A stretch of DNA of 64,000 nucleotides from Clostridium sp. GTDB taxonomy: Bacteria > Bacillota > Clostridia > Clostridiales > Clostridiaceae. Below the pieces are notes generated by a model. It searched no databases, had not been told where the DNA came from, and worked only from the letters and a program-made list of their open reading frames with translations. Made by a program: the position numbers and the translations under genes. Below, in pieces: positions 16,634 to 60,033 of the stretch (position 1 is its first letter; every line of letters starts with the position of its first letter). The DNA lies in contig NZ_JAJFUC010000042.1 in assembly GCF_021372645.1 (NCBI RefSeq), positions 1 to 64,000 of the forward strand. Direction: 5' to 3'.

Positions 16634-17874
16634 TTATTCTTGTACTTTTACATTTTCTTTACCTAAATTTTCTTTTAGCAAATCTATGACATCACTTTCC
16701 AATGACACCCATCTATCTCTTGGTATTCTGAATTTTTGTTTTTCTCTACTTGCAAATATATAAATAGGTGTATCTCCAAGATATTCTTTTATTAATAGCT
16801 CTTTAAGTTTTTTACTAAGCTCTTGCGCTGATATTGTATCCTCTGCTCTCAAATATACTTTTGAATTATCTATTTTTTCTAAAGGTTCTATACTTTCACA
16901 GATAAGCTTAGGTGGTTCATCTTCTTTTAAGCTTAATCTACCCTTTATTATAACTAAGCTATCAGTTACACATAGTTCTTTAACTTTATCTAAAGTTTTA
17001 GGAAAGACTATTACTTCAATTGTTCCTGTTAAATCTTCAAGTTTTAAAAATGCCATTATTGTATTATTTCTAGTTACCTTTTGATTAACTGATGCAAGTA
17101 TTCCACCAAGAATTACTCTATCATTGTCTTGAAGAGTATCTTCTCTATTAAATATGGCAACTTCATCTATATCAGTTCCTAATGTATCATCAAGGGTCTC
17201 TTGAACTAAAAATATTTTAGATATTTCATTTGAAGTCTGCATCTTTAAGCTTTGAGCATAATCATCCAAGGGATGTCCTGTAATATAAAGTCCTGTCATT
17301 TCTTTTTCCATAGCTAATAAATTTTTTTTATTAAATTCTTTTATATTAGGATATTTCACTTCTGGATTCTTCAATTCTTCATTTGCAAATAAGCTTATTT
17401 GTCCCTCAATATTTCTTCTTTTATCACTGGATATATTTTCAATCGTCTTTTCATGAACTGCTAACATTTTTGATCTAAAAACTTTAAAATTGTCTAAAGC
17501 TCCAGCCTTTATTAAGCATTCAACTGCACGTTTATTTATTGTTGATGGTTCCATCTTATTTATAAAGTCTACTAACGATTCAAATTCACCATTGTCTTCT
17601 CTTGCTTTCACTATACTATCTACAACATTAGCTCCAACATTTTTAATAGCAGCTAAACCAAATCTGATTTTATCACCCTTAACTGTAAATCTTGAGAAGC
17701 TTTCATTTATATTAGGTGGTAATACTTGTATTCCTAATTCTTCTGCTATTCCAATGTAATATGCTACCTTTTCATTTATTCCCATAATTGAATTGAGCAT
17801 AGCTGCAAGCATTTCTACAGGATAATATTTCATAATATATGCTGTTTGATATCCTACAACTGCATAAGCTGCTG
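16634..17874 (-). CDS. dnaE: DNA polymerase III alpha subunit DnaE, 3' exon
   Basis: C-terminal part of the replicative polymerase (codon 779 onwards, 413 residues). It contains the end of the fingers domain (AAYAVVGYQTAY), the helix-hairpin-helix region (VECLIKAGALDNF) and the OB fold (LGGILASVNQKVTRNNTI). It has no start of its own: the open frame extends 11 codons into the intron. Removing 17875-20640 regenerates the universally conserved NKSHAAAYAVV and restores the frame exactly, with 2,335 + 1,241 = 3,576 bases, i.e. 1,191 codons plus stop. Without splicing no complete polymerase can be made from this locus. Confidence 0.93.
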
Positions 17875-17962
17875 ATGTCGATAGGTAAGTCTTTGATACT
17901 ATCTCCAACTTTTCCCCCGACCCAAACGGTACGTGCGACTTTCACCGCATACCGCTTTCCAT
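17875..17962 (-). ncRNA. Group II intron domains V and VI
   Basis: Domain V is recognised on the minus strand at about 17924-17960: GCGGTATGCGG-TGAAAG-TCGCACGTACCG, which matches the near-invariant catalytic helix with compensated pairs. Domain VI follows, ending CTATCGACAT. The A eight bases from the 3' end (17882) is at the canonical branch-point distance. The intron ends in AT, fitting the bacterial AY rule. Confidence 0.88.
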
Positions 17963-18011
17963 CGAAATAGTTTTCCATCTAATGACTTCTTCTTTTAAAT
18001 TAAAGTTGCCT

Positions 18012-19919
18012 TTAATTCAAAGTTTCACCTATTTTAATTAAGTTATCTTCTTCGAAAATTATATTTCTTAATTCTAAAATCTTTTTATTTTTAGTTTCTG
18101 TATTAGAATGAACTAACTCGTGACATTCATCACATAGAGTTATTAAGTTTGGAACTTTATTTATCTGATTTAAAGGAAGTTTCCGTCTTTTATGATGACA
18201 TTTAACTATTCCAGTATATACAGATTTCTTACATGCCATACACATTCCCTTATCTCTGTTATAAGCATATTCTCTATTCATTACATATTCAAAATTATAA
18301 ATGTTTCCTTTTCTTTCTTGATTTCCTGCTATTATAAATAATTCATATGGATTATATAGTGTTGGTCTAAGTTTCCCTCTTTGTTTTTTAGAGGTATTAC
18401 TTTTCAATTCTCTACCTTCTTCTGTATATGGTGTCATTTTAGGATTAAATTTTCTTGCATAAATAATTGGTGTTATTGATGCTTTGGTTAATCCTATTTT
18501 TAAATCCTTATAATCAAAGAAGAATGTTTTTTGTTTATATCCCATATGTCTATTAGTAAGATTATTAACTTTGTCTATATCTATAAGTCTATCTTTTCCA
18601 CTTCCGTATAACCTTCGTACCGTTTTATATCCAGTATAATATATTTTATTATCTATATTTTGTAATATAGATTTTGCAATGCTTATTTTATAATAATTTG
18701 CAATTCTAATAATCATACTATTTATTTTTTCTACAAGTACAACTGTCTTTAACGGTGTTTCTTGATATCTTATAGCCTCGACTTTATCTAATATTTCTCT
18801 GGTTTTAGTCTTAACCATTTCTCTATTAGGCATAACCTTACATACGAGATTGTTTGTTAATCTCTTTTTCTCTACAAATAGTTCAAATCCAAGAAATTTA
18901 GCATTTTCTTCTCTTAAATCTGTAATCATAGTTTTATCATCAGATAATTCTAATGATAATCTATGTTTGAAGAATTTCTTACATTGATAAAGTAGTTTAT
19001 TTGCTTCGTTTTTACTTTCAGTTAATATTATCCAATCATCTGCATATCTTATTAAATACTTTTGAACATGTTCCTTTTTCAGTTTCTTCCTTGCATTATC
19101 CAATGCAACTTTTCTTACTGATGATTTTGCTTTGTTTATATAATCATCTAAAAAGGGATGTTCTTCATATTGTGTTGCCACATATTTATCAAATGCGTTT
19201 AGGTATATATTGGCTAATAACGGTGATATTATTCCACCTTGTGGAGTTCCAATGTCAGATTTATTATATTTTAAATCTTCCATTATTCCTGCTTTTAGCA
19301 TTTTCTTAATCATATTTAGCACTCTTTTATCTCTTATTCCAAGTCCCCACATCATTTTAATTAATATGTTGTGATTAACATTGTCAAAGAAACTTTTAAT
19401 GTCACCTTCAATTGCAACATAACATTTAGTTGTATTAACTAAACTTACAATTCGTGCAATTGCATGTTCTGTGTTTCTGTATGGTCTAAAACCATAACTA
19501 TGATTAAAGAACTTTGCTTCCACTATAGGCTCTATAACAATTCTCGTTATCTCTTGTATAATCCTATCTATCATTGTTGGGATACCAAGAGGTCTTAGTT
19601 TCCCACTCTTTTTAGGTATATACACCCTTCTAACTGCATTTGGTTTATAGTTGTCGATACACTTTCTTATTAGATTTATTAACTTTGTTGTATCCATTTG
19701 CAAATATTTATCAATATTAACTTTATCTATTCCAGCAGTAAAACTACCTTTATTAGATTTAATATTGTGTATTGCAGTAATTATTGTTTGTTCATTCTTC
19801 ATTACTTCAACTAAATCATAAAATTCAGTATTCTTTTTAGAATTTTCATACATTTTATCTAAAACATTAACTAATTGTTTTTCATTTTTAATAACATAAC
19901 TTTTTAAACACATCTGCAA
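18012..19919 (-). CDS. ltrA: Group II intron-encoded protein: RT, maturase, HNH endonuclease
   Basis: A 635-residue multifunctional protein that helps the intron fold and splice and drives its retrohoming. Reverse-transcriptase blocks are at about 60-350, with GTPQGG near 225 and the catalytic YADD at 292-295. Maturase domain X is at about 380-480. The C-terminal HNH endonuclease has CxxC at 560-563, HH at 575-576 and CDEC at 596-599. All catalytic residues are present. The frame opens at GTG 19928 inside the ribosome site. GGAGG (19928-19932) is 8 bases from TTG 19919, with ATG at 19913 as an alternative. Confidence 0.93.
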   Translation of the reverse strand: MQMCLKSYVIKNEKQLVNVLDKMYENSKKNTEFYDLVEVMKNEQTIITAIHNIKSNKGSFTAGIDKVNIDKYLQMDTTKLINLIRKCIDNYKPNAVRRVYIPKKSGKLRPLGIPTMIDRIIQEITRIVIEPIVEAKFFNHSYGFRPYRNTEHAIARIVSLVNTTKCYVAIEGDIKSFFDNVNHNILIKMMWGLGIRDKRVLNMIKKMLKAGIMEDLKYNKSDIGTPQGGIISPLLANIYLNAFDKYVATQYEEHPFLDDYINKAKSSVRKVALDNARKKLKKEHVQKYLIRYADDWIILTESKNEANKLLYQCKKFFKHRLSLELSDDKTMITDLREENAKFLGFELFVEKKRLTNNLVCKVMPNREMVKTKTREILDKVEAIRYQETPLKTVVLVEKINSMIIRIANYYKISIAKSILQNIDNKIYYTGYKTVRRLYGSGKDRLIDIDKVNNLTNRHMGYKQKTFFFDYKDLKIGLTKASITPIIYARKFNPKMTPYTEEGRELKSNTSKKQRGKLRPTLYNPYELFIIAGNQERKGNIYNFEYVMNREYAYNRDKGMCMACKKSVYTGIVKCHHKRRKLPLNQINKVPNLITLCDECHELVHSNTETKNKKILELRNIIFEEDNLIKIGETLN

Positions 19920-19932
19920 GGTTATCACCTCC

Positions 19933-20640
19933 GATTGTTTTTACTATTAAATTCCCACCTTCATTTGAAGGGTTCATGATGATATGTTATTAAATAGGCT
20001 ACTTACTATTCCGACTGGTGTCCTTCGCTCCAAGTAGTTTTATCCATCCTTCTTACATTACTGTAAATAGTGACTATCGGCTACTCATCAACACTACTAT
20101 GACACCTCTGACTCCTTCTAATTTTCATAGATATAGCAAATCTCCAATTAGAAGGTATCTCCAGTTCCAATAAAACTATCCCTTATTTTACTTCAGTTTA
20201 GGTTTCCTCTCTATGCCGAGGGCTACATTATAACTGACTACCATAATCATTATAAGTTGTAACTTTTATAAGTTATCATATACAACCGAACCACGAACGT
20301 TTGTATAAACCCTAAGATCCCACCTTCTGCTGTGGGGCAACAATTACGACATTTCACACGAGGATTCGTTGTCTAACCATGCTAAAGTTTTTAAGGATGC
20401 CCACTCCATTTAGTTACGTATGTCAAGTGTGTAACATCAGGCTCTGTCCTTACCGTGCTCTATACACCTTCGAGTGCTATCTGTTGAGTGCATAACGGGG
20501 TATCAGCAATATCACTACTGGTAGTTGTGATAGAAAGGATTTTCACCTTTCAATTCGTTTTATCAGTTTGAATTAATTATATTAATCCACTTGCTTTTAT
20601 TCCTTATCTAAAGGCTTTTATATGCAAGAACTGGACGCAC
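19933..20640 (-). ncRNA. Group II intron 5' domains I-III
   Basis: About 700 bases of structured, less AT-biased RNA between the 5' splice site and the maturase. No reading frame of note occurs in it. Exon-binding sites should lie here; only a tentative EBS1 was picked out. Confidence 0.75.
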
Positions 20641-22975
20641 CATGGGATTTATTGAATGCATAAGACGCAAAATCCATCATAGAATCAAAAATTTTATTTG
20701 CCGCTTCCTCTGTAATTCCATTTCTTATACATCCTGGAACTACTACTTCATCATTTTCAACAATACCATGAATGAAATTTTTTCTTTCTTCTTCCATGAC
20801 TTTGTGTTTTTTCTTAGACATAGCTCTTCGAACCATATCACTTCGTCCCATAGAGTATCCTGCTAAATCTCTAACAGCTTGCATTACTTGTTCTTGATAT
20901 ACCAAACATCCATAGGTTACTTTTAATATGTTTTCTAATTCTTTAGTTAGATAAGTAACTTTTTCTGGGTTTCTCTTCCCATCTATGTACCTTGGTATTT
21001 CAGCCATAGGACCTGGTCTATATAGTGAAATCCCTGCAATTATATCTTCTATAGAATCAGGTTTTAATTCTTTCATGAACGATGTCATACCAGCTGATTC
21101 TAATTGAAATACACCTGCTGTATTACCTTCACCAATCATTTTATAAACTTCTTTATCACTAAAATCTATCTTATCAAGGTCTATGTCAATATTTCTATTT
21201 TCTTTAACCATATTAATAGCATCATTCATAACAGTTAAAGTTCTAAGTCCTAAGAAATCCATCTTTAGTAGTCCAAGTTCTTCTAAGGTTCCCATACCAA
21301 ATTGAGTTACTATCATTTCATCATTTTTTTGCAAAGGAACATACTCAACTAATGGTCTTGATGCAATAACTACACCTGCTGCATGGGTTGAAGAATGCCT
21401 TGGTAGACCTTCTAAGTCCTTTGCAACATCTATTAAGGTTTTTACTCTTTCCTCACTATCATAAGCTAATTTGAGCTCTGGATTAAATTCCAATGCCTTT
21501 TCTATAGTTATACCTAACATAGTTGGTATCATCTTAGCAATTCTATCAACTTCTGAATAATTGTAGTTCATAGCTCTTCCTACATCTCTTATACATACTC
21601 TAGGAGCCATTGTACCAAAGGTTATTATTTGTGAAACATTGCTTGCTCCATATTTCTCTACTACATAGTCAATTACTTCTTGTCTTCTTTCATAGCAGAA
21701 ATCACTATCAATATCTGGCATAGATACTCTCTCTGGATTTAAAAAACGTTCAAATATTAAACTATATTTGATGGGATCTATCTTAGTAATTCCTAAAGTA
21801 AAAGCTACTATTGACCCAGCTGCAGAACCTCTACCTGGTCCTGTTGGAATTCCACTTTCATAAGAAAATCTAATGAAATCCCAAACAATTAAAAAATAAT
21901 CAACATAACCCATTTGTTTTATTATTTCAAGCTCATATTCTAATCTATCTATATATTCTTTTGCCTTTTCACTAACTTCCATTATCTTATCTATTTCTTC
22001 ATAATTTAAAGGTTTGTCAATTAATCCTTCAAATACATCATACCTATCTATAAGGCCTTTATAACAAGTATCTCTAAGATATTCATATGGTTCTTGCCCT
22101 TCTTCTAATGGAAATTTAGGCAACTTAGATTCATGAAACTTATATTCATAATTACACTCATCTGCAATTTTAATAGTATTTTCCAAAGCTTCTGGCACAT
22201 ATGAAAATATATCCCACATTTCTTCTGCTGACTTTAAATAAAATTGATCTGAAGGATATCTTCTTCTATGGGGATCATCTATAGTTTTAGCTGTTTGTAT
22301 ACACATTAGAACATCATGTGACTTAGAATCTTCTTTATTTATATAATGGACATCATTAGTAGCTACTAATGGTATCCCTGTTTCCTTAGATAATTTTATA
22401 TTTTCTTCATTTACTTTTTTTTGTTCTTCCATTCCATGATTCTGTACTTCAAGATAAAAATCACCATTAAATATCTCTTTATATATTAAAGCTGTTTCTT
22501 TAGCTTTTTCATAATTTTCTTTAAGGTGATAAGATTGTACTTCTCCACCTAAACATGCACTTAAAGCAATTAATCCTTCACTATGCTTTCTTAAATAATC
22601 ATGGTCAACTCTTGGCTTATAATAAAAGCCTTCAATTGATGCCGCTGATACTATTTTCATTAAATTTTCATATCCAATTTGATTTTTAACTAGTAAAACT
22701 AAATGGTACGTTGAATTTTCTTTATCTGGTTGCTTAATATGCATAGATTTTGGTACTGCATATACTTCACAACCTAAAATTGGCTTTATTTCATTTTCCT
22801 TTGCAGCCTTATAAAAATCTACAAGTCCATATAGAACTCCATGATCTGTTATAGCTACGCTCTTCATCCCTAATTCTTTAGCTTTTGCCATAAGCTTTCC
22901 AATTTTGCCTGACCCATCTAATAAACTATACTCTGTATGAAGATGTAGATGTACAAATTCCTTTTCTTTATCCAT
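20641..22975 (-). CDS. dnaE: DNA polymerase III alpha subunit DnaE, 5' exon
   Basis: First 778 codons plus one base of the replicative polymerase. The PHP domain begins HLHLHTEYS (9-17). The polymerase active site is complete in this exon, with GRGSAAGS (381-388), PDIDSDF containing Asp421 and Asp423, and a third Asp near 573 (KMDFLGLR). The exon ends in SYAFNKSH plus G, where the intron begins. Reading on into the intron would add a few residues and stop at 20618. AGGAGG precedes ATG 22975. An intrinsic terminator (23064-23111) separates it from the upstream gene, so dnaE has its own promoter. Confidence 0.95.
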
Positions 22976-52907: not shown

Positions 52908-54053
52908 CTATTTTGAATATAAATATCCCGAAAATAATAATAAGCCAAAACATGCTATATGAAATGTTACTACTATTTGAATATACTGAAACCATTTTTC
53001 TTTTTTATGTTTTTTATAAAATTTTGAATTATGTTGATATATATCTGTACCTACTAATGCTAAACCTTGATAAAGTCCATATATAATATAATACCATTTT
53101 AAATCATGCCATACTCCCATAATGAACATTGTTAATAATTGTCCTATATGTGAAGCCTTAATCCTATTTTTAAATCTTTTATTTCTCATACTATTTAATA
53201 CAAATCTTGAATATATATAATCTCCAAACCATTTTGATAATGATATATGCCATCTAGTCCAAAATTCTTTCATGTCTTTACTTAAAAATGGTTTATTAAA
53301 ATTCTCTGGCATTCTTATACCTAATATATAACTTGTACCTACTGCAAAAGCTGTGTATCCTGCAAAATCAAAAAACAGATATAAGCTATATGCATACATA
53401 TAATTTAATGAATTTATAAATGTTACCTCAGTAGGAATTTTAGTCATCCACAATGCATTAATTAAGTCAGCTATTACGAATTTGTATATTATTCCTCTAA
53501 TTATACGTTTTATACCAAAATATAAATAATCCTTAATATATTCTTCTCTATTTATACTTTTTTCTAAGTCATTTTCAAATCTTCTTGATCTATCTATCGG
53601 CCCAGAAATTAATGTCGGAAAAAATAAAAAGAAATATAATGTTTTTAATATACTAACTTCTTTAATAGTTCCATCATATATTTCAATAACCATCTGTATA
53701 GCTTTAAAATTAAGATATGAAAGCCCTATAAATCCTATACTTCTTACAGTTGTTATAGCACTTACTTTAAAAATAATTACTGGTAACATAGAACAAAATA
53801 AAACAAAATAATATAAATATTTATTATCTGTCTTTTTTCTCAAGATAAAATATACTTTAATTAATGTAATTTCTGATAATAGAAACAATGGAAATACTTT
53901 TCCTATTCCCATAATTGCCATTATCATTAAAATTGATAAAAAAACACCATAATACTTAATCTGTTTTTCTAATAATCCTAAAATAATAGCTGGTATTAAA
54001 GCAATCATTAATACATACAAATAAAAATAATCACCGTATTGAACTAATGTCAT
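52908..54053 (-). CDS. dltB: DltB-like MBOAT acyltransferase, shortened paralogue
   Basis: 381 residues, closely similar to the 406-residue DltB at 55989-57209. It lacks about 25 residues between MIMAIMG and the ITLIKVYF segment, an in-frame loss of a loop and part of a helix. The MBOAT residues remain (FWTRWHISLSKWFGDYIY; GVWHDLKW with the catalytic His), although the usual WHG is WHD. It could still move D-Ala or another acyl group, or be decaying. The start overlaps a relic of the dltA 3' end; AGGAGGAAA follows its stop with no dltC behind it. Confidence 0.8.
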   Translation of the reverse strand: MTLVQYGDYFYLYVLMIALIPAIILGLLEKQIKYYGVFLSILMIMAIMGIGKVFPLFLLSEITLIKVYFILRKKTDNKYLYYFVLFCSMLPVIIFKVSAITTVRSIGFIGLSYLNFKAIQMVIEIYDGTIKEVSILKTLYFFLFFPTLISGPIDRSRRFENDLEKSINREEYIKDYLYFGIKRIIRGIIYKFVIADLINALWMTKIPTEVTFINSLNYMYAYSLYLFFDFAGYTAFAVGTSYILGIRMPENFNKPFLSKDMKEFWTRWHISLSKWFGDYIYSRFVLNSMRNKRFKNRIKASHIGQLLTMFIMGVWHDLKWYYIIYGLYQGLALVGTDIYQHNSKFYKKHKKEKWFQYIQIVVTFHIACFGLLLFSGYLYSK

Positions 54054-54098
54054 TTTGATTCCTCCATAAGTTTGTTTCTGGTAATATCAGTAATGCTG
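54050..54098 (-). pseudogene. Relic of the dltA 3' end
   Basis: Directly upstream of the shortened dltB the minus strand reads ITRNKLMEESK-stop, with the stop overlapping the dltB ATG. The intact dltA ends IDRKKLMEDLR-stop with the same overlap. The DNA AAACTTATGGAGGA is identical in both, and it contains the dltB ribosome site. Only about ten codons of dltA remain. Confidence 0.75.
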
Positions 54099-54145
54099 AT
54101 GTGAATTCTTAATTAAAATATTTGATAGAAGTTATATTTTTTCTA

Positions 54146-54268
54146 TTAAAATTGACTATACACAAATGGCAAATCAGATGATGAATAAAAGAAATATACT
54201 ACTAAAACTGCCACCAAAAATGCTGTTAACATTACTGTTCTATTAAACTCTTTATTATTTGTTAAAAT
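54146..54268 (-). CDS. dltX: DltX microprotein, partial operon
   Basis: 40 codons ending PFVYSQF-stop, matching the conserved C-terminus of DltX peptides (F-x-Y-x-x-F). A single membrane helix (MLTAFLVAVLVVYFFYS) precedes it. It overlaps the end of dltD in another frame. No ATG occurs at the position equal to the paralogue's start: an ATT at 54268 or an internal ATG at 54232 (28 residues) would begin it. DltX is thought to act with DltB/DltD in D-alanine transfer. Confidence 0.7.
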   Translation of the reverse strand: MLTNNKEFNRTVMLTAFLVAVLVVYFFYSSSDLPFVYSQF

Positions 54269-55448
54269 GTTTATAAATTTCTTCACTTACTTTTAACCAC
54301 CCTTCATTTCCTAAATGTTTTGGATCTGCTAGAAAACCTTCTTTGTTCTCATATTCTTGTAAATTAAGGACTTCAACTTTATTATCTTCTGCTATTTTTT
54401 TTACCTTGTCATAATACTCATCTCTTTTATCTTTAGGAAGTTCTACATAATTATAATACCATCCATTGACTGGAAGCAAAATAACATAGGGTTCTATATT
54501 AAGATCCTTGCAAACACTTAAGAAAAATTTATAATCATCTATCTCTTTTGACTCAATAGGATTTTCACCACTTGATATTCCTTTAGTTTTAGTCAATTCC
54601 GCTAAATTTTTTTTATAATATTTATCATCTAAATGGAATTCATTAGTATATGTGTTTTTATCATTTTCTTCTTTGACCTTCGCATATTCATCTGCCCAAT
54701 TAATTTCTTTCAATTCTTGCTTATTACTTTTTAGGGGCAAATCCTTCAGCTCTTTATAAAGTAATGCTTTATCTTGAATATCTAATAAATACTCTTTAAT
54801 TTTATAATACGGTTCAAACATTAGCATTATAGCTTTTTTTAACATTGTTGGTTTATAATATAATCTAGCATAAAATGCTTCTGCTGGATACTTTTTAGCC
54901 TTATTTAACATTGTGTATATGCGTTCACAATAATACTGTTTATTTACTTCACTTATTTTAGGATTATTTAAAAATTTATAAAACTGCATATCTGAAAAGT
55001 TAACAGCAAAATTATATGGTAATATAGCATCCTTTTCTTCAAACCATTGCATTGAAAGTAAAAGAGTTACCTTTTGATTTTCTTGTATGTTTCCTGAACC
55101 CAGATAAGTGGCTTGTTGTAAGTCTTGAACAAATGCTCTTCCAAAACAGCTTGTTCTATATTCAGCCCCTTTAAATGGAAACATATTTATTGAATTCTGT
55201 GGAACTTGCACTCCCATTTCAGATGATCCTAGTAAAAACAGAGTTCCTTCATTGGACAACAATGTCTTATCTAGTGCACTTTTATCTTTAACTACATCTC
55301 CATAGTTGTTACCAATTAAAGAAACATCTCTTTCTTGCATTAGACTAGCTAACTTATTATCTAATGTTGTATTTATAATAAATGTGACTATAATTGCAAT
55401 CACAATTGATATTATTATTGGTATTAAAAAACTCATTATTTTTTTCAT
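54255..55448 (-). CDS. dltD: DltD-like D-alanyl transfer protein, second copy
   Basis: 397 residues: an N-terminal membrane anchor (about 5-28) and an extracellular SGNH-hydrolase-like domain with FLLGSSEMG (catalytic Ser) and the Asp-His pair in DPKHLGNEGW. It is similar throughout to the DltD at 58846-60033 and looks intact. It heads the partial dlt set (dltD-dltX-dltB) behind the terminator at 55680-55712, so it needs its own promoter, which is not obvious. Confidence 0.88.
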   Translation of the reverse strand: MKKIMSFLIPIIISIVIAIIVTFIINTTLDNKLASLMQERDVSLIGNNYGDVVKDKSALDKTLLSNEGTLFLLGSSEMGVQVPQNSINMFPFKGAEYRTSCFGRAFVQDLQQATYLGSGNIQENQKVTLLLSMQWFEEKDAILPYNFAVNFSDMQFYKFLNNPKISEVNKQYYCERIYTMLNKAKKYPAEAFYARLYYKPTMLKKAIMLMFEPYYKIKEYLLDIQDKALLYKELKDLPLKSNKQELKEINWADEYAKVKEENDKNTYTNEFHLDDKYYKKNLAELTKTKGISSGENPIESKEIDDYKFFLSVCKDLNIEPYVILLPVNGWYYNYVELPKDKRDEYYDKVKKIAEDNKVEVLNLQEYENKEGFLADPKHLGNEGWLKVSEEIYKHFNK

Positions 55449-55553
55449 TTCTTTGTAACCTCTTTATATATTAAAAAAATTTTTCTAGATTTATATTTAA
55501 AACTCAACAATGTACATAATTACCATATGTTTTAGTTATATAAATAGCAAAAA

Positions 55554-55632
55554 TCAAGATTTCTCTTCATAAATACCGCCTACTGATTTCGCATAATCAA
55601 TAATCCCATATAATTCTGCACATGCTAATTAG
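55554..55632 (-). pseudogene. Possible gene fragment between the two dlt units
   Basis: A frame reading LACAELYGIIDYAKSVGG then IYEEKS-stop looks protein-like but has no start, ribosome site or recognised family. It may be a remnant of DNA lost during the duplication, or chance. Confidence 0.2.
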
Positions 55633-55679
55633 TACAAACCACTTGCCTACCAAGTTTATTCAATTATTCTAATTCACAA

Positions 55680-55712
55680 TAAAAAATGGAATGTTTAGAC
55701 ATCCCATTTTAT
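55680..55712 (-). terminator. Terminator of the complete dlt operon
   Basis: AAATGGGATGT and ACATTCCATTT arms (11 pairs, one G-T) followed by TTTTTATT on the minus strand, about 30 bases after dltC. Confidence 0.75.
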
Positions 55713-55743
55713 TATAATATTCTACTATATACTTTTCAAGACT

Positions 55744-55977
55744 TTATGCAATTTTACTTTGTAAAAATGCTATTAAATTGTTAACTGTAGCCATATCTTT
55801 CTTTTCTAAATCTGTTGGTTGTAACTTTAATCCAAAAACTTCTTCAATTTTTAGTATCACTTCTATAATTCCTAAAGAATCAAGTAGTCCTGCTTCAAAT
55901 AAGTCTATGTCTTTTTCTTCAGCGATATCGTCACTTCCTGTAACTTCTATCAACATATCCAATACTTTTTCTTCCAT
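55744..55977 (-). CDS. dltC: D-alanyl carrier protein DltC
   Basis: 77 residues, acyl-carrier fold, with the phosphopantetheine Ser34 in LLDSLG. It carries D-alanine from DltA to DltB for D-alanylation of teichoic acids. TAGGAGGAG at the dltB stop provides the ribosome site. The only dltC in the window, so the second dltB/dltD set must share it if it works in the same reaction. Confidence 0.95.
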   Translation of the reverse strand: MEEKVLDMLIEVTGSDDIAEEKDIDLFEAGLLDSLGIIEVILKIEEVFGLKLQPTDLEKKDMATVNNLIAFLQSKIA

Positions 55978-55988
55978 TTTAACTCCTC

Positions 55989-57209
55989 CTATTTAGTAAA
56001 TAAATATCCTGAAAATATTAATAATCCAAAACATGCTATATGAAATGTTATTATTATTTGCACATATTGAAACCATTTTTCTTTTTTATGAGCTTTATAG
56101 AACTTTGATTTTCTTTGATACATATCAGTGAATACTAATGCTGCTCCTTGATATAAACCATATATAATATAAAACACTTCAAATCCATGCCAAAATCCCA
56201 TAATACCCATTGTTATCATTTGCCCCACATGAGAAGCAATTATTCTATTTTTAAATCTTTTTTTTCTCATGCTATTTAAAACAAATCTTGAATATATGTA
56301 ATCTCCAAACCATTTTGATAATGATATGTGCCATCTATTCCAAAATTCTTTCATATCCTTACTTAAGAAAGGTTTATTAAAGTTTTCTGGTGCTCTAATT
56401 CCTAAAATATAGCTTGTTCCTACTGCAAAGGCACTATATCCTGCAAAATCAAAGAATAGATACAAACTATAAGCATACATGTAGTTTAATGAATTAATAA
56501 ATGTAACTTGTGTTGGAATTTTGTTCATCCACAATGTACTTATAATTACTGAAATTACAAATTTATATAAAAAGCCTCTAAATATATGTTCACATCCTGA
56601 AATTAAATAATCATTTACGTACTCTTTTCTACTTATCTTTTTTTCTATATCTTCATTGAATCTTCTTGATCTGTCTACTGGCCCAGAACTTAATGTTGGA
56701 AAAAACAAAAAAAAGTACAATGTGTTTAAAATGCTTAGTTCTGTTATAGTTTTATCATATATTTCAATAATCATTTGTATGGCTTTGAAATTAAGATATG
56801 AAAGACCTATAAATCCTATTGTTCCTAGTTTAGTTAAAGGTGTTATTTTTAAAATTATTATTGGTAACATTGAGCTGAATAAGACAGAATAATATAAGTA
56901 CTTGTTATCAGTCTTTTTTCTTATCTCAAAATATCCTTTTATTAATATAATTTCCCCTATTAAAAATATAAGAAATAACACAATTTGTATCTTATCATCT
57001 AATATAGCATGGTATATGCCTTTCATAGATAATGAAATATTATTTATATTATCAAATCTAACTCCCATAATAGCAACTATCATTACTACTGATAAAAATA
57101 ATCCATAATACTTAATAGGCTTTTGTAATAATCCCAAAATGATAGCTGGGATTAAAGAAATCATTAATATATATAAATAAAAATAATCTCCATATTGAGT
57201 TAACGTCAT
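55989..57209 (-). CDS. dltB: D-alanyl transfer protein DltB
   Basis: 406-residue MBOAT membrane acyltransferase that passes D-alanine across the membrane. FWNRWHISLSKWFGDYIYS and the catalytic His in MGFWHGFEVFYIIYG are present. About a dozen membrane helices. Its ATG overlaps the dltA stop (ATGA). Compared with its paralogue at 52908 it keeps a 25-residue stretch (FDNINNISLSMKGIYHA...). Confidence 0.94.
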   Translation of the reverse strand: MTLTQYGDYFYLYILMISLIPAIILGLLQKPIKYYGLFLSVVMIVAIMGVRFDNINNISLSMKGIYHAILDDKIQIVLFLIFLIGEIILIKGYFEIRKKTDNKYLYYSVLFSSMLPIIILKITPLTKLGTIGFIGLSYLNFKAIQMIIEIYDKTITELSILNTLYFFLFFPTLSSGPVDRSRRFNEDIEKKISRKEYVNDYLISGCEHIFRGFLYKFVISVIISTLWMNKIPTQVTFINSLNYMYAYSLYLFFDFAGYSAFAVGTSYILGIRAPENFNKPFLSKDMKEFWNRWHISLSKWFGDYIYSRFVLNSMRKKRFKNRIIASHVGQMITMGIMGFWHGFEVFYIIYGLYQGAALVFTDMYQRKSKFYKAHKKEKWFQYVQIIITFHIACFGLLIFSGYLFTK

Positions 57210-58720
57210 CTCAAGTCCTCCATAAGTTTCTTTCTGTCAATCTTCCCATTAGTATTTAAAGGGAATCTCTTTAAAATCTTAATATTCCTTGGGATCATAT
57301 ATGCTGGTATAAACTTTTTCAATTCTTCTTTTATTATTATTGAATTTTTTAAATTTGATAAATCATTTTCTTTGTTAAGAACTATAAATGCTGTTAAATG
57401 AGCAATCTTATTTTCATCATTATATACAGGAAGTACTGCTACATTATTTATATTTTCCACTTTTCTTAAATTATTTTCTATATCCTCAATTTCAATTCTG
57501 AATCCATTTAACTTTATTTGAAAATCTTTTCTTCCAGAATAATATAATATCCCATTCTCATAATAAGCTAAATCTCCTGTTTTATAACCTTGTTTATCAC
57601 CATTAGTTTTAAAGAAAACCTTGTTAGTCATTTCTTCATTATTAAGATATCCTATACTTACATTATCTCCTACTACAACAAGTTCTCCTTTTTCGCCATC
57701 TTTTAATTTATTTCCATCTTCATCTTCTATTCTTAATTCACAATTTGGAATAGGATATCCTATAGGTAGTGGATTTTTATCCTCTAACATTTCCTTAGTT
57801 ATATCAATTACAGAAATTGCTACAGTTGCTTCTGTTGGTCCATAAGCATTTATAATCTTAGCATCTGGAAATCTTTCCATAAGAATTTTTGCTGTATTCT
57901 TAGTAAGTACTTCTCCTATAAATATAAACTTTGAGATTTTGCTCATAGATTTACTATTAAAATCATCAAACTTATTGCAAATGTCAGCTAATGTAGGTGT
58001 TGATACCCAGCATTCTATATCTGATTCAATTAATTGAGTAAACATTTCACTTAAATCTTGTAATGTGCTCTTAGCTAAACTAAATAAAGTTTTTCCATTG
58101 CATAATCCAAGATATAATGGTACTACAGATAAATCAAAAGAATATGCTGGTTGATTTAACATAACTGTTGAACTATCATCAACATAAGTATCTTTTTCAA
58201 ACCAAGTTATAAATGAATCAAGATTTCTTTTATTAATTTGAACACCTTTAGGTTTTCCAGTACTACCAGATGTAAATAAGATATAACAATTATCTTCATC
58301 TGTTACCCAATTCTTCTTTGTTACTGATATGGTATGATTACTATTAAAAATATCTTCTATTGCAATTAAATTCAACTCTAATATATTATCTACATTTATG
58401 GGATTCTCTGTGCAATTAAATATAACCTTAGGCTTAACCTCTGTTATTATTTGATTTATTCTATCTGTTGGAAAAGATATGTCTAGTGGTACATAAGCTC
58501 TTCCAGATTTTAATGCGCCCATCATTACAGGTAAGATTTCATTTTCCTTATTCCCATAGATAACTATAGGTTTTCTATCTTCTTTAAATTCTTCTAAAAG
58601 GTACGTTGCAACTTTATTTGAATAGTCTTTCAATTCCTTATATGTAAGTTCATTTCCTAAACATCTAACTGCTACTCTTTCTGTATTTGCAAATTTATCA
58701 ATACTTTCTAATATCCTCAT
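57206..58720 (-). CDS. dltA: D-alanine--D-alanyl carrier protein ligase DltA
   Basis: Adenylates D-alanine and loads it on DltC. 504 residues of the adenylate-forming family: ILFTSGSTGKPKGV (A3), NAYGPTEATVA (A5), GYKTGDLAYY (A7) and the catalytic Lys in NTNGKIDRKKL (A10). The longest frame begins 17 codons upstream; ATAGGGGGC before ATG 58720 fixes the start (MRILESIDKFA). It is 19 bases after dltX. Confidence 0.95.
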   Translation of the reverse strand: MRILESIDKFANTERVAVRCLGNELTYKELKDYSNKVATYLLEEFKEDRKPIVIYGNKENEILPVMMGALKSGRAYVPLDISFPTDRINQIITEVKPKVIFNCTENPINVDNILELNLIAIEDIFNSNHTISVTKKNWVTDEDNCYILFTSGSTGKPKGVQINKRNLDSFITWFEKDTYVDDSSTVMLNQPAYSFDLSVVPLYLGLCNGKTLFSLAKSTLQDLSEMFTQLIESDIECWVSTPTLADICNKFDDFNSKSMSKISKFIFIGEVLTKNTAKILMERFPDAKIINAYGPTEATVAISVIDITKEMLEDKNPLPIGYPIPNCELRIEDEDGNKLKDGEKGELVVVGDNVSIGYLNNEEMTNKVFFKTNGDKQGYKTGDLAYYENGILYYSGRKDFQIKLNGFRIEIEDIENNLRKVENINNVAVLPVYNDENKIAHLTAFIVLNKENDLSNLKNSIIIKEELKKFIPAYMIPRNIKILKRFPLNTNGKIDRKKLMEDLR

Positions 58721-58739
58721 AACTTTGCCCCCTATTATT

Positions 58740-58859
58740 TTAAAATTGACTGTATACAAATGGTATATCATTTAATGAATAAAAAAAATAAATTACTAAT
58801 GCTAACACTACCGTTATTGATACTACTATAGTCCTCTTAAAATCCTTATCGTTGATCAA
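58740..58859 (-). CDS. dltX: DltX microprotein, complete operon
   Basis: 39 residues from TTG 58859 (40 if an ATT at 58862 is used), with one membrane helix and the conserved end DIPFVYSQF-stop. It overlaps the last codons of dltD in another frame; AAGGAA inside dltD lies upstream. There is no ATG in the frame. DltX peptides lie next to dltA in many Gram-positive bacteria and are needed for D-alanylation. The copy at 54146-54268 aligns without gaps. Confidence 0.75.
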   Translation of the reverse strand: MINDKDFKRTIVVSITVVLALVIYFFYSLNDIPFVYSQF

Positions 58860-60033
58860 AATGCTTATAAATTCCTTCACTTACTTTCAACCACCCTTCT
58901 TTGCCTAAATGCATTATATCAATTAAGAAATATTGTTTATAGTCGTTTTCACTTAAATCAAGAACATCAATATCTTGTTCTTCTGCTAGCATTTTAATTT
59001 TATTGTAATACTCGTTCCTTTTTCCCTTATCAAGTCCCAAATAATCATTATACCAACCATTTACTGGAGGCATTATTATGTATGGCTTTATATTAAGTTC
59101 CTTACATACACTTAAAAGAAATTTATAATCATTCATTTCTTTTGAGTTTATTAAATCCTCACCTTTTGAATTGCCTTTGATCTTATCTACTACATCTTTT
59201 AAATTCTTATTATAACAATCATCTTGAAGCTTAAATTGATTTGTAGATACTAATTCACTATTCTCTTTTTGGATTTTTTCATACTCATCTTGCCAATTTA
59301 CGCTTTTAAGTTCTGTATTACTTTGCTTATTGGGTAATGCCTTCAATTCTTTATAAATTAACGCTTTATCTTTAACATTTAATAAATACCCACTAATCTT
59401 ATAATATGGATTCATTACTACCATTGCATATTTTTTTAATGGGCTTTTGCTATAATATAATCTTGCATAAAGAGCTTCTGCTGAATACTTTTTTGCCTCC
59501 ACCAAGAAATTGTAAACCCTTTTAGCATAGTATTCCTTATTCTCCTCACTTATTTTAGGATTATTAAGAAAATTATAGAATTGTATATCTGAAAAATTAA
59601 CTGCAAAATTTTTAGCTTGCATTCCTTCTGGATCTTCAAACCATTGACTAGAAACTATAAGTGCTATATTTTGATTTTCTTTTAAATCACAGCCTCCGAG
59701 TACAGTTGCTTGCTGTAAATCTTGAGTATACGCTCGTCCAAAGCAGCTTACATTATAATCAGCTCCTTCAAACGGGAAAAATTGTATTGCATTTTGAGGA
59801 GTATCCACTCCCATTTCAGAAGATCCCATTAAAAATAAATCTCCTTTGTCGGATATTATTTTTTTAATTATTGCACTTTTATCTTTTGTTAAATCTCCAT
59901 ATTTAGCACCAATCTGAGAAACATTCTTTTCTTGAGTTAATTCTATTATTTGCTTATCTAAATAATTATTAATTGATACTGTAACTATAATTGCAAGTAA
60001 TATAGGTATTAAAAAACTAATTATTTTTTTCAT
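58846..60033 (-). CDS. dltD: D-alanyl transfer protein DltD
   Basis: 395 residues: membrane anchor (about 5-27) and SGNH-like domain with FLMGSSEMG and DIMHLGKEGW. DltD completes D-alanine transfer to teichoic acid outside the membrane. It is first in this operon (D-X-A-B-C), unlike Bacillus where dltD is last. GAAAGGAC precedes ATG. Confidence 0.92.
   Translation of the reverse strand: MKKIISFLIPILLAIIVTVSINNYLDKQIIELTQEKNVSQIGAKYGDLTKDKSAIIKKIISDKGDLFLMGSSEMGVDTPQNAIQFFPFEGADYNVSCFGRAYTQDLQQATVLGGCDLKENQNIALIVSSQWFEDPEGMQAKNFAVNFSDIQFYNFLNNPKISEENKEYYAKRVYNFLVEAKKYSAEALYARLYYSKSPLKKYAMVVMNPYYKISGYLLNVKDKALIYKELKALPNKQSNTELKSVNWQDEYEKIQKENSELVSTNQFKLQDDCYNKNLKDVVDKIKGNSKGEDLINSKEMNDYKFLLSVCKELNIKPYIIMPPVNGWYNDYLGLDKGKRNEYYNKIKMLAEEQDIDVLDLSENDYKQYFLIDIMHLGKEGWLKVSEGIYKHFDQR

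Follow-up and report, generated by a model that had tools for sequence, protein, structure and literature searches.

The window, a 64,000-nt stretch comprising the first 64 kb of one contig, came from a 3.12-Mb draft genome of Clostridium sp. that was 93.5% complete. It contained an interrupted dnaE gene on the minus strand, with a surrounding gene order of rapZ-, yvcK- and whiA-like genes, dnaE, pfkA and pyk, names that we presume for these neighbours. The dnaE gene was composed of two exons separated by a 2,766-nt insert. The 5' exon (positions 20641–22975, minus strand) held 778 codons and the first base of codon 779 and encoded the PHP, alpha NTPase and finger domains, as read from the ORF list, Pfam and NCBIfam. 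The 3' exon (16634–17874, minus strand) took up codon 779 at its second base, continued to the stop codon and encoded helix-hairpin-helix and OB domains (ORF list and Pfam), and DnaE domains were thus matched by Pfam on either side of the insert. The interruption fell in the codon right after the FNKSH motif. In the unspliced frame, the reading frame of the 5' exon stopped 7 codons inside the insert. The junction CAT-G + CA-GCA restored NKSHAAAYAVV in frame, and the coding lengths of 2,335 and 1,241 nt added up to 3,576 nt, both as proposed in the first-pass annotation.

The insert (17875–20640, minus strand) started with GTGCG at 20640 and ended with GACAT at 17875. The region of domains V and VI (17875–17959, minus strand) was matched by RF00029 with 62.8 bits and an E value of 5.7e-10, and the match, running from 17959, terminated exactly at the 3' splice site. 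The RF00029 alignment placed a bulged branch-point A at 17882, eight bases before the AY 3' end. The match of RF02004 to the domain I region (20390–20571, minus strand), running from 20571 to 20390, was marginal, with 34.8 bits barely over the cut-off of 34.5. The same two junctions were found in two other species. The boundaries, the domain V and the branch-point A claimed earlier thus agreed with the covariance-model search for group II domain V and with the recurring junctions, and the insert was confirmed, as judged from its sequence, to be a real group II intron.

The intron ORF (18012–19919, minus strand) contained no stops in the ORF list and was predicted to encode a protein with a reverse transcriptase, a domain X and an HNH-like tail. 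Its listed start was GTG 19928. This codon overlapped a Shine-Dalgarno-like stretch, GGAGGTGAT (19924–19932, minus strand), whereas TTG 19919 was located 8 nt after GGAGG, and the TTG was therefore considered the more likely start. The protein matched RVT_1 of Pfam with 124 bits and TIGR04416 of NCBIfam with 327 bits (cut-off 300), and a YADD motif was present. Domain X (GIIM) scored slightly under the Pfam cut-off (22.7 vs 23), and the 77%-identical homologue from genome G068 passed it with 26.3. The best relative in the PDB was LtrA (5g2x). Pfam reported no HNH domain in the intron protein. The HNH-like tail was a Cys/His pattern close to the C-terminus, and an IscB match of NCBIfam at residues 537–614 reached 25.7 bits, far under the 175-bit cut-off. 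Of the full RT/maturase/HNH protein claimed earlier, the reverse transcriptase and maturase parts were thus upheld by RVT_1, TIGR04416 and YADD, and the HNH part by its residue pattern only. The genome contained one full match to this protein at 100% identity, and the next matches were 36% and 41% identical. By these features the group II intron is apparently both intact and mobile.

A pairing scan combined with a hairpin alignment placed a candidate for EBS1 with the sequence CGTGGT at 20290–20295 (minus strand), in the loop of a hairpin, for pairing with an IBS1, CCCATG, in the 5' exon at 20641–20646 (minus strand). The candidate paired with five of the six IBS1 bases, one of them through a G-U pair, with a mismatch at position -6. 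The equivalent loop of the intron in genome G033, CGTGAG, paired with all six bases of its IBS1, CTCATG. Between these two introns position -5, which is the free third base of a serine codon, switched from a C-G to a U-A pair, and the difference in the intron fell exactly in the candidate EBS1 loop. In G068 the mismatch was at -5. Own EBS1–IBS1 pairs averaged 3.45 across 19 introns, a value equalled by 19 of 2,000 partner swaps and matched by 3 of 2,000 letter shuffles. These 19 were taken from 24 introns; the omitted ones were four LAGLIDADG-type introns at site 694 that are near-copies of the one in G009 (G027, G040, G052, and G154), and G084, whose junction was other than assumed. For several of the 19, among them G203 at site 424, G195 at site 694 and the other two introns of the window's genome, the loop offered no convincing match. 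A search for EBS2 in the window intron found none. The sequence GCATGGTT after domain I was also considered as EBS1 and was rejected because the sequence AUGG-U/G-AG occurred at that place in most introns regardless of their insertion site.

The same intron was found at exactly this dnaE nucleotide in Clostridium sp. C2-6-12 (G033) and in uncultured Clostridiaceae SRR12377477_bin.18 (G068). The first-pass annotation had called for a search of relatives for empty and occupied sites; among 206 Clostridiaceae genomes the site was occupied in 3, and the empty motif was present in 165, all three occupied genomes lacking it. In family genomes with neither state, the codons varied, another insert was present or the contig was broken. 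A pattern of FNKSH followed by GTGYG, which demanded GTGYGNC and was scanned possibly without the window's own genome, gave 6 matches in 84,980 species genomes. Two of these were dnaE introns, both clostridial. None of the 5 viral matches was a dnaE intron, and three of them were uninterrupted phage polymerases with the reading NKSHG. Plasmids contained only distant relatives, with no record covering 80% of the intron, and phage protein matches to the intron protein were all under 60% identity.

When the window was compared with G033, the introns were 97.0% identical, whereas the exons were 83–84% identical. The synonymous divergence (dS) was 0.113 for the intron ORF and 1.012 and 0.927 for the exons; since synonymous sites approach saturation at a dS near 1, this contrast is a lower bound for the difference in age and not a date. 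The exon dN values were 0.068 and 0.083, and dN/dS was about 0.1 in both exons and in the intron ORF. All three are under purifying selection, as would be expected of a gene that is functional and spliced. Over the 60 nt of 5' exon next to the intron, identity was 73%, so exon identity was not raised beside the intron and exon co-conversion was absent between the two. The low dS of the intron against that of dnaE, together with the lack of exon co-conversion, points to a recent horizontal spread of the intron between the two dnaE backgrounds, most simply by retrohoming. Such a pattern would be a trace of an RNA-based process and would be unexpected for recombination through the flanks.

Vertical inheritance from an ancestor shared by all three species, with loss elsewhere and with slow evolution as the cause of the high identity, would also place the intron at the same nucleotide in all three. 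The comparison of the window with G068 resembled this expectation, as the dS of the intron ORF (1.41) showed no contrast to that of the exons (1.75 and 1.32); because of this similarity, that pair alone is no proof of transfer. For the window and G033, in contrast, the synonymous divergence of the intron ORF was about nine times below that of dnaE, which already disfavours vertical descent for that pair. Furthermore, two species with a DnaE N-terminal part closer to that of the window than G033, namely G012 (95%) and G004 (94%), had an unbroken dnaE with an empty site. We therefore regard common descent as an unlikely explanation and favour a mobile intron that spreads between species.

The genome contained three matches to PF07733: the interrupted dnaE, a 1,454-aa frame that was taken as PolC, and, on contig C25, a divergent gene. 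This 149-kb contig is probably circular because its ends overlap by 141 nt. Its polymerase and the adjoining exonuclease V-like protein matched PHROG 405, which represents a phage DNA polymerase, and PHROG 4412, respectively; the contig may be read as a large phage or phage-plasmid (loci L009 and L019). The empty FNKSHAA motif was absent from the genome. A possible second dnaE copy, raised earlier as an exception to dependence on the intron, was not found beside the PolC-like and phage-type polymerases in the 93.5% complete draft, in which a copy could be missing. The dnaE gene is essential in Bacillus subtilis, and growth would likely depend on splicing of the dnaE intron here; synthesis of DnaE itself would very probably require it.

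If the intron spliced inefficiently, the interrupted dnaE could instead be a pseudogene whose role had passed to the PolC-like and phage-type polymerases. Both of these are encoded in the genome, and the imperfect EBS1–IBS1 pairing of the window intron would agree with poor splicing. The exons, however, were open and under purifying selection relative to G033 (dN 0.068 and 0.083 at a dS of about 1), and domains V and VI were identical in the window and G033 introns. This combination makes a decayed gene very improbable and favours a dnaE that is still spliced and used.

The dnaE genes of the Clostridiaceae carried many other inserts. The 778-residue N-terminal part of DnaE was used as the query and had a match in 200 of the 206 family genomes, of which the best 150 were listed; the 56 genomes beyond these and 7 genomes with short frames were examined separately, and 38 dnaE loci were read. 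Inserts were found in the dnaE of at least 38 of the 206 genomes, a lower bound given that matches were lacking in 6 genomes, some genes ran off their contigs and a few long frames were left unread. The inserts counted numbered 64, with two or more in 19 dnaE genes and three in 7. Their sites were numbered by the residues of the intact DnaE of G012.

Site 384 held four inteins with PF14890 matches (loci L086, L092, L103, and L110), which had a Cys start, an HN|S end and lay in the GPGRGS motif of DnaE. Group I cut-offs of Rfam were reached by 10 of the 11 inserts at site 410, 4 of the 12 at site 421 and 5 of the 16 at site 774, and by none at site 778, where three non-group-II inserts occurred in addition to the three group II introns of the window, G033, and G068. 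In total, 42 inserts were located at 410, 421, 774, and the other 778 site, of which 19 reached the cut-off and 3 gave weak matches. The remaining inserts at these sites would be group I elements, judging by shared junctions or LAGLIDADG ORFs; the insert of G062 was left unclassified among the 42. The dnaE of G033 (locus L064, contig C56) carried a second insert of 1.2 kb, located between residues 421 and 422 within the PDIDSDF motif and containing a LAGLIDADG ORF, for which no Rfam group I match was obtained at E 0.01.

Group II introns were found at five sites: three at 424, one at 576, ten at 694, one at 697, and the three at 778. All 18 had GTGCG ends and clean codon-completing junctions in phase 1. 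Two of the introns at 694 carried an RT, and the other eight carried a LAGLIDADG ORF, a remnant or none. In three of them (G009, G069, and G154; loci L081, L095, and L107) a LAGLIDADG_3 match above the Pfam cut-off was located between the matches to domain I and domain V. The 694 introns of G052 and G203 (loci L091 and L114) were short, with 771 and 745 nt, respectively, and had no sense-strand ORF of at least 75 codons among the ORFs listed; they would need help in trans or unaided splicing.

PolC-like genes served as a control. Of the 24 listed, 22 were unbroken (1,438–1,488 aa); 19 of the 24 came from the 38 genomes with inserts, and 18 of these 19 were unbroken. Among the matches listed for 129 genomes of the class outside the family with a DnaE match, two looked interrupted or enlarged. 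The dnaE frame of G670 ended at residue 696, similar to site 694, and the dnaE of G653 lay within a 1,601-aa frame, possibly with an intein. Because nearly all listed PolC frames were unbroken and few cases occurred outside the family, the insert load is specific to dnaE and concentrated in the Clostridiaceae. A VYQ|E group II pattern was matched in 20 of 398 phylum genomes, compared with 12 for the reversed control. None of the six loci examined was a dnaE gene, and no spread beyond the family is claimed. On sequence comparison, the dnaE of the Clostridiaceae is thus a common target of three types of predicted self-splicing element.

The five group II sites lay in conserved codons of dnaE, all of them in the top 14% of the protein by conservation. 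The percentiles of their 8-codon DnaE windows were 3.8, 0.1, 12.1, 13.7, and 3.1, in an alignment that was trimmed at the ends and left out two phage loci (L028 and L030). Random site sets were as conserved in none of 20,000 draws over the whole protein and in 0.1% of draws within residues 280–800. An untrimmed version with the two phage loci gave a weaker result, in which the group II sites ranked 82, 36, 133, 187, and 49 of 1,177, and the insert sites ranked from 33 to 197 of 1,177 windows with the exception of site 774, at rank 6.

The anatomy of the intron, its site, the three occupied species, the transfer pattern, the purifying selection and the hot spot are very probably explained by a mobile group II intron that homed into one fixed nucleotide of dnaE, is spliced out to make DnaE, and can reverse-splice into empty sites. 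The intron would be co-transcribed with dnaE, and its RNA would fold and be bound by the encoded maturase. Branching at A17882 would then release the intron as a lariat, and ligation of CAT-G to CA-GCA would give a message for a DnaE of 1,191 aa. The intron RNA and protein would reverse-splice into the empty FNKSH|A site of other dnaE genes, followed by DNA copying. The FNKSH|A site is presumably conserved because the polymerase needs it, and a conserved site would offer many targets to the intron and protect it from imprecise deletion. Inteins and group I elements with homing endonucleases would exploit dnaE as well. The proposal that the intron is a regulatory switch, in which the amount of DnaE would be set by splicing efficiency and replication thereby tied to growth or stress, has only the position in a replication gene in its favour and is the least probable reading, as the patchy presence (3 of 206), the recent transfer and the many unrelated elements at neighbouring sites fit a parasite and no regulatory feature was found; the leverage over replication and the control point suggested by the first-pass annotation were unsupported.

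On balance, we favour a broader reading in which the Clostridiaceae dnaE would be a shared landing pad where inteins, group I introns and several independent group II lineages, some with LAGLIDADG instead of RT, compete for a few active-site codons. The group II introns would have taken up a conserved-site strategy previously regarded as peculiar to inteins and group I introns, and in many species production of one polymerase would rest on two or three different splicing chemistries. The five group II sites in one replicative polymerase gene contrast with published surveys on housekeeping genes and on conserved sites. These state that most bacterial group II introns are located outside housekeeping genes (Zimmerly and Semper 2015; PMC4424553) and that group II introns showed no preference for conserved sites, with a combined p of 0.49 (Swithers et al. 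2009; PMC2814812). The clostridial dnaE would offer a natural system for studying the convergence of unrelated self-splicing parasites on a single gene, their mutual exclusion or succession, and the question of whether three splicing reactions on one essential message are affordable for a cell. The window intron and its close copies in different dnaE backgrounds would be a clean case for tests of interspecies homing.

The window intron shared RNA domains I and V/VI, the GTGCG...AY ends and the RT/maturase ORF with Ll.LtrB and related introns, and differed from them in its location inside a conserved replication gene. PMC12702839 and PMC3403396 list cyanobacterial DnaE inteins. Inteins, including these split forms, are likewise self-splicing parasites of dnaE, but they splice as protein whereas the window intron would splice as RNA. 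The split site of the cyanobacterial DnaE is one that we take to lie about six codons upstream of the window intron site. Group I introns with LAGLIDADG endonucleases are described in PMC3984707 from polymerase genes of the phages SPO1 and Bastille and from recA and nrdE of Bacillus. They are also RNA introns within conserved replication genes, but their ribozyme is of another kind and they home by a DNA-based route.

Group II introns bearing LAGLIDADG ORFs, from fungal rRNA genes and Thiomargarita, were all in rRNA genes as far as known by 2015, according to PMC4424553. The dnaE introns of G009, G069, and G154 resembled these in joining a group II RNA to a LAGLIDADG ORF and differed in being located in a protein gene, and the window intron differed from LAGLIDADG group II introns in carrying an RT. 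The open-licence literature yielded no paper whose title or abstract dealt with introns in clostridial dnaE, and an earlier description may exist elsewhere. The window intron is a known kind of element at a new site.

A further locus was noted on the minus strand of the window at 52908–60033, where two similar gene pairs (about 381/406 aa and 397/395 aa) surrounded a 521-aa adenylation-like enzyme. Judged by eye, the locus looks like a duplicated acyltransferase locus of the D-alanylation type.
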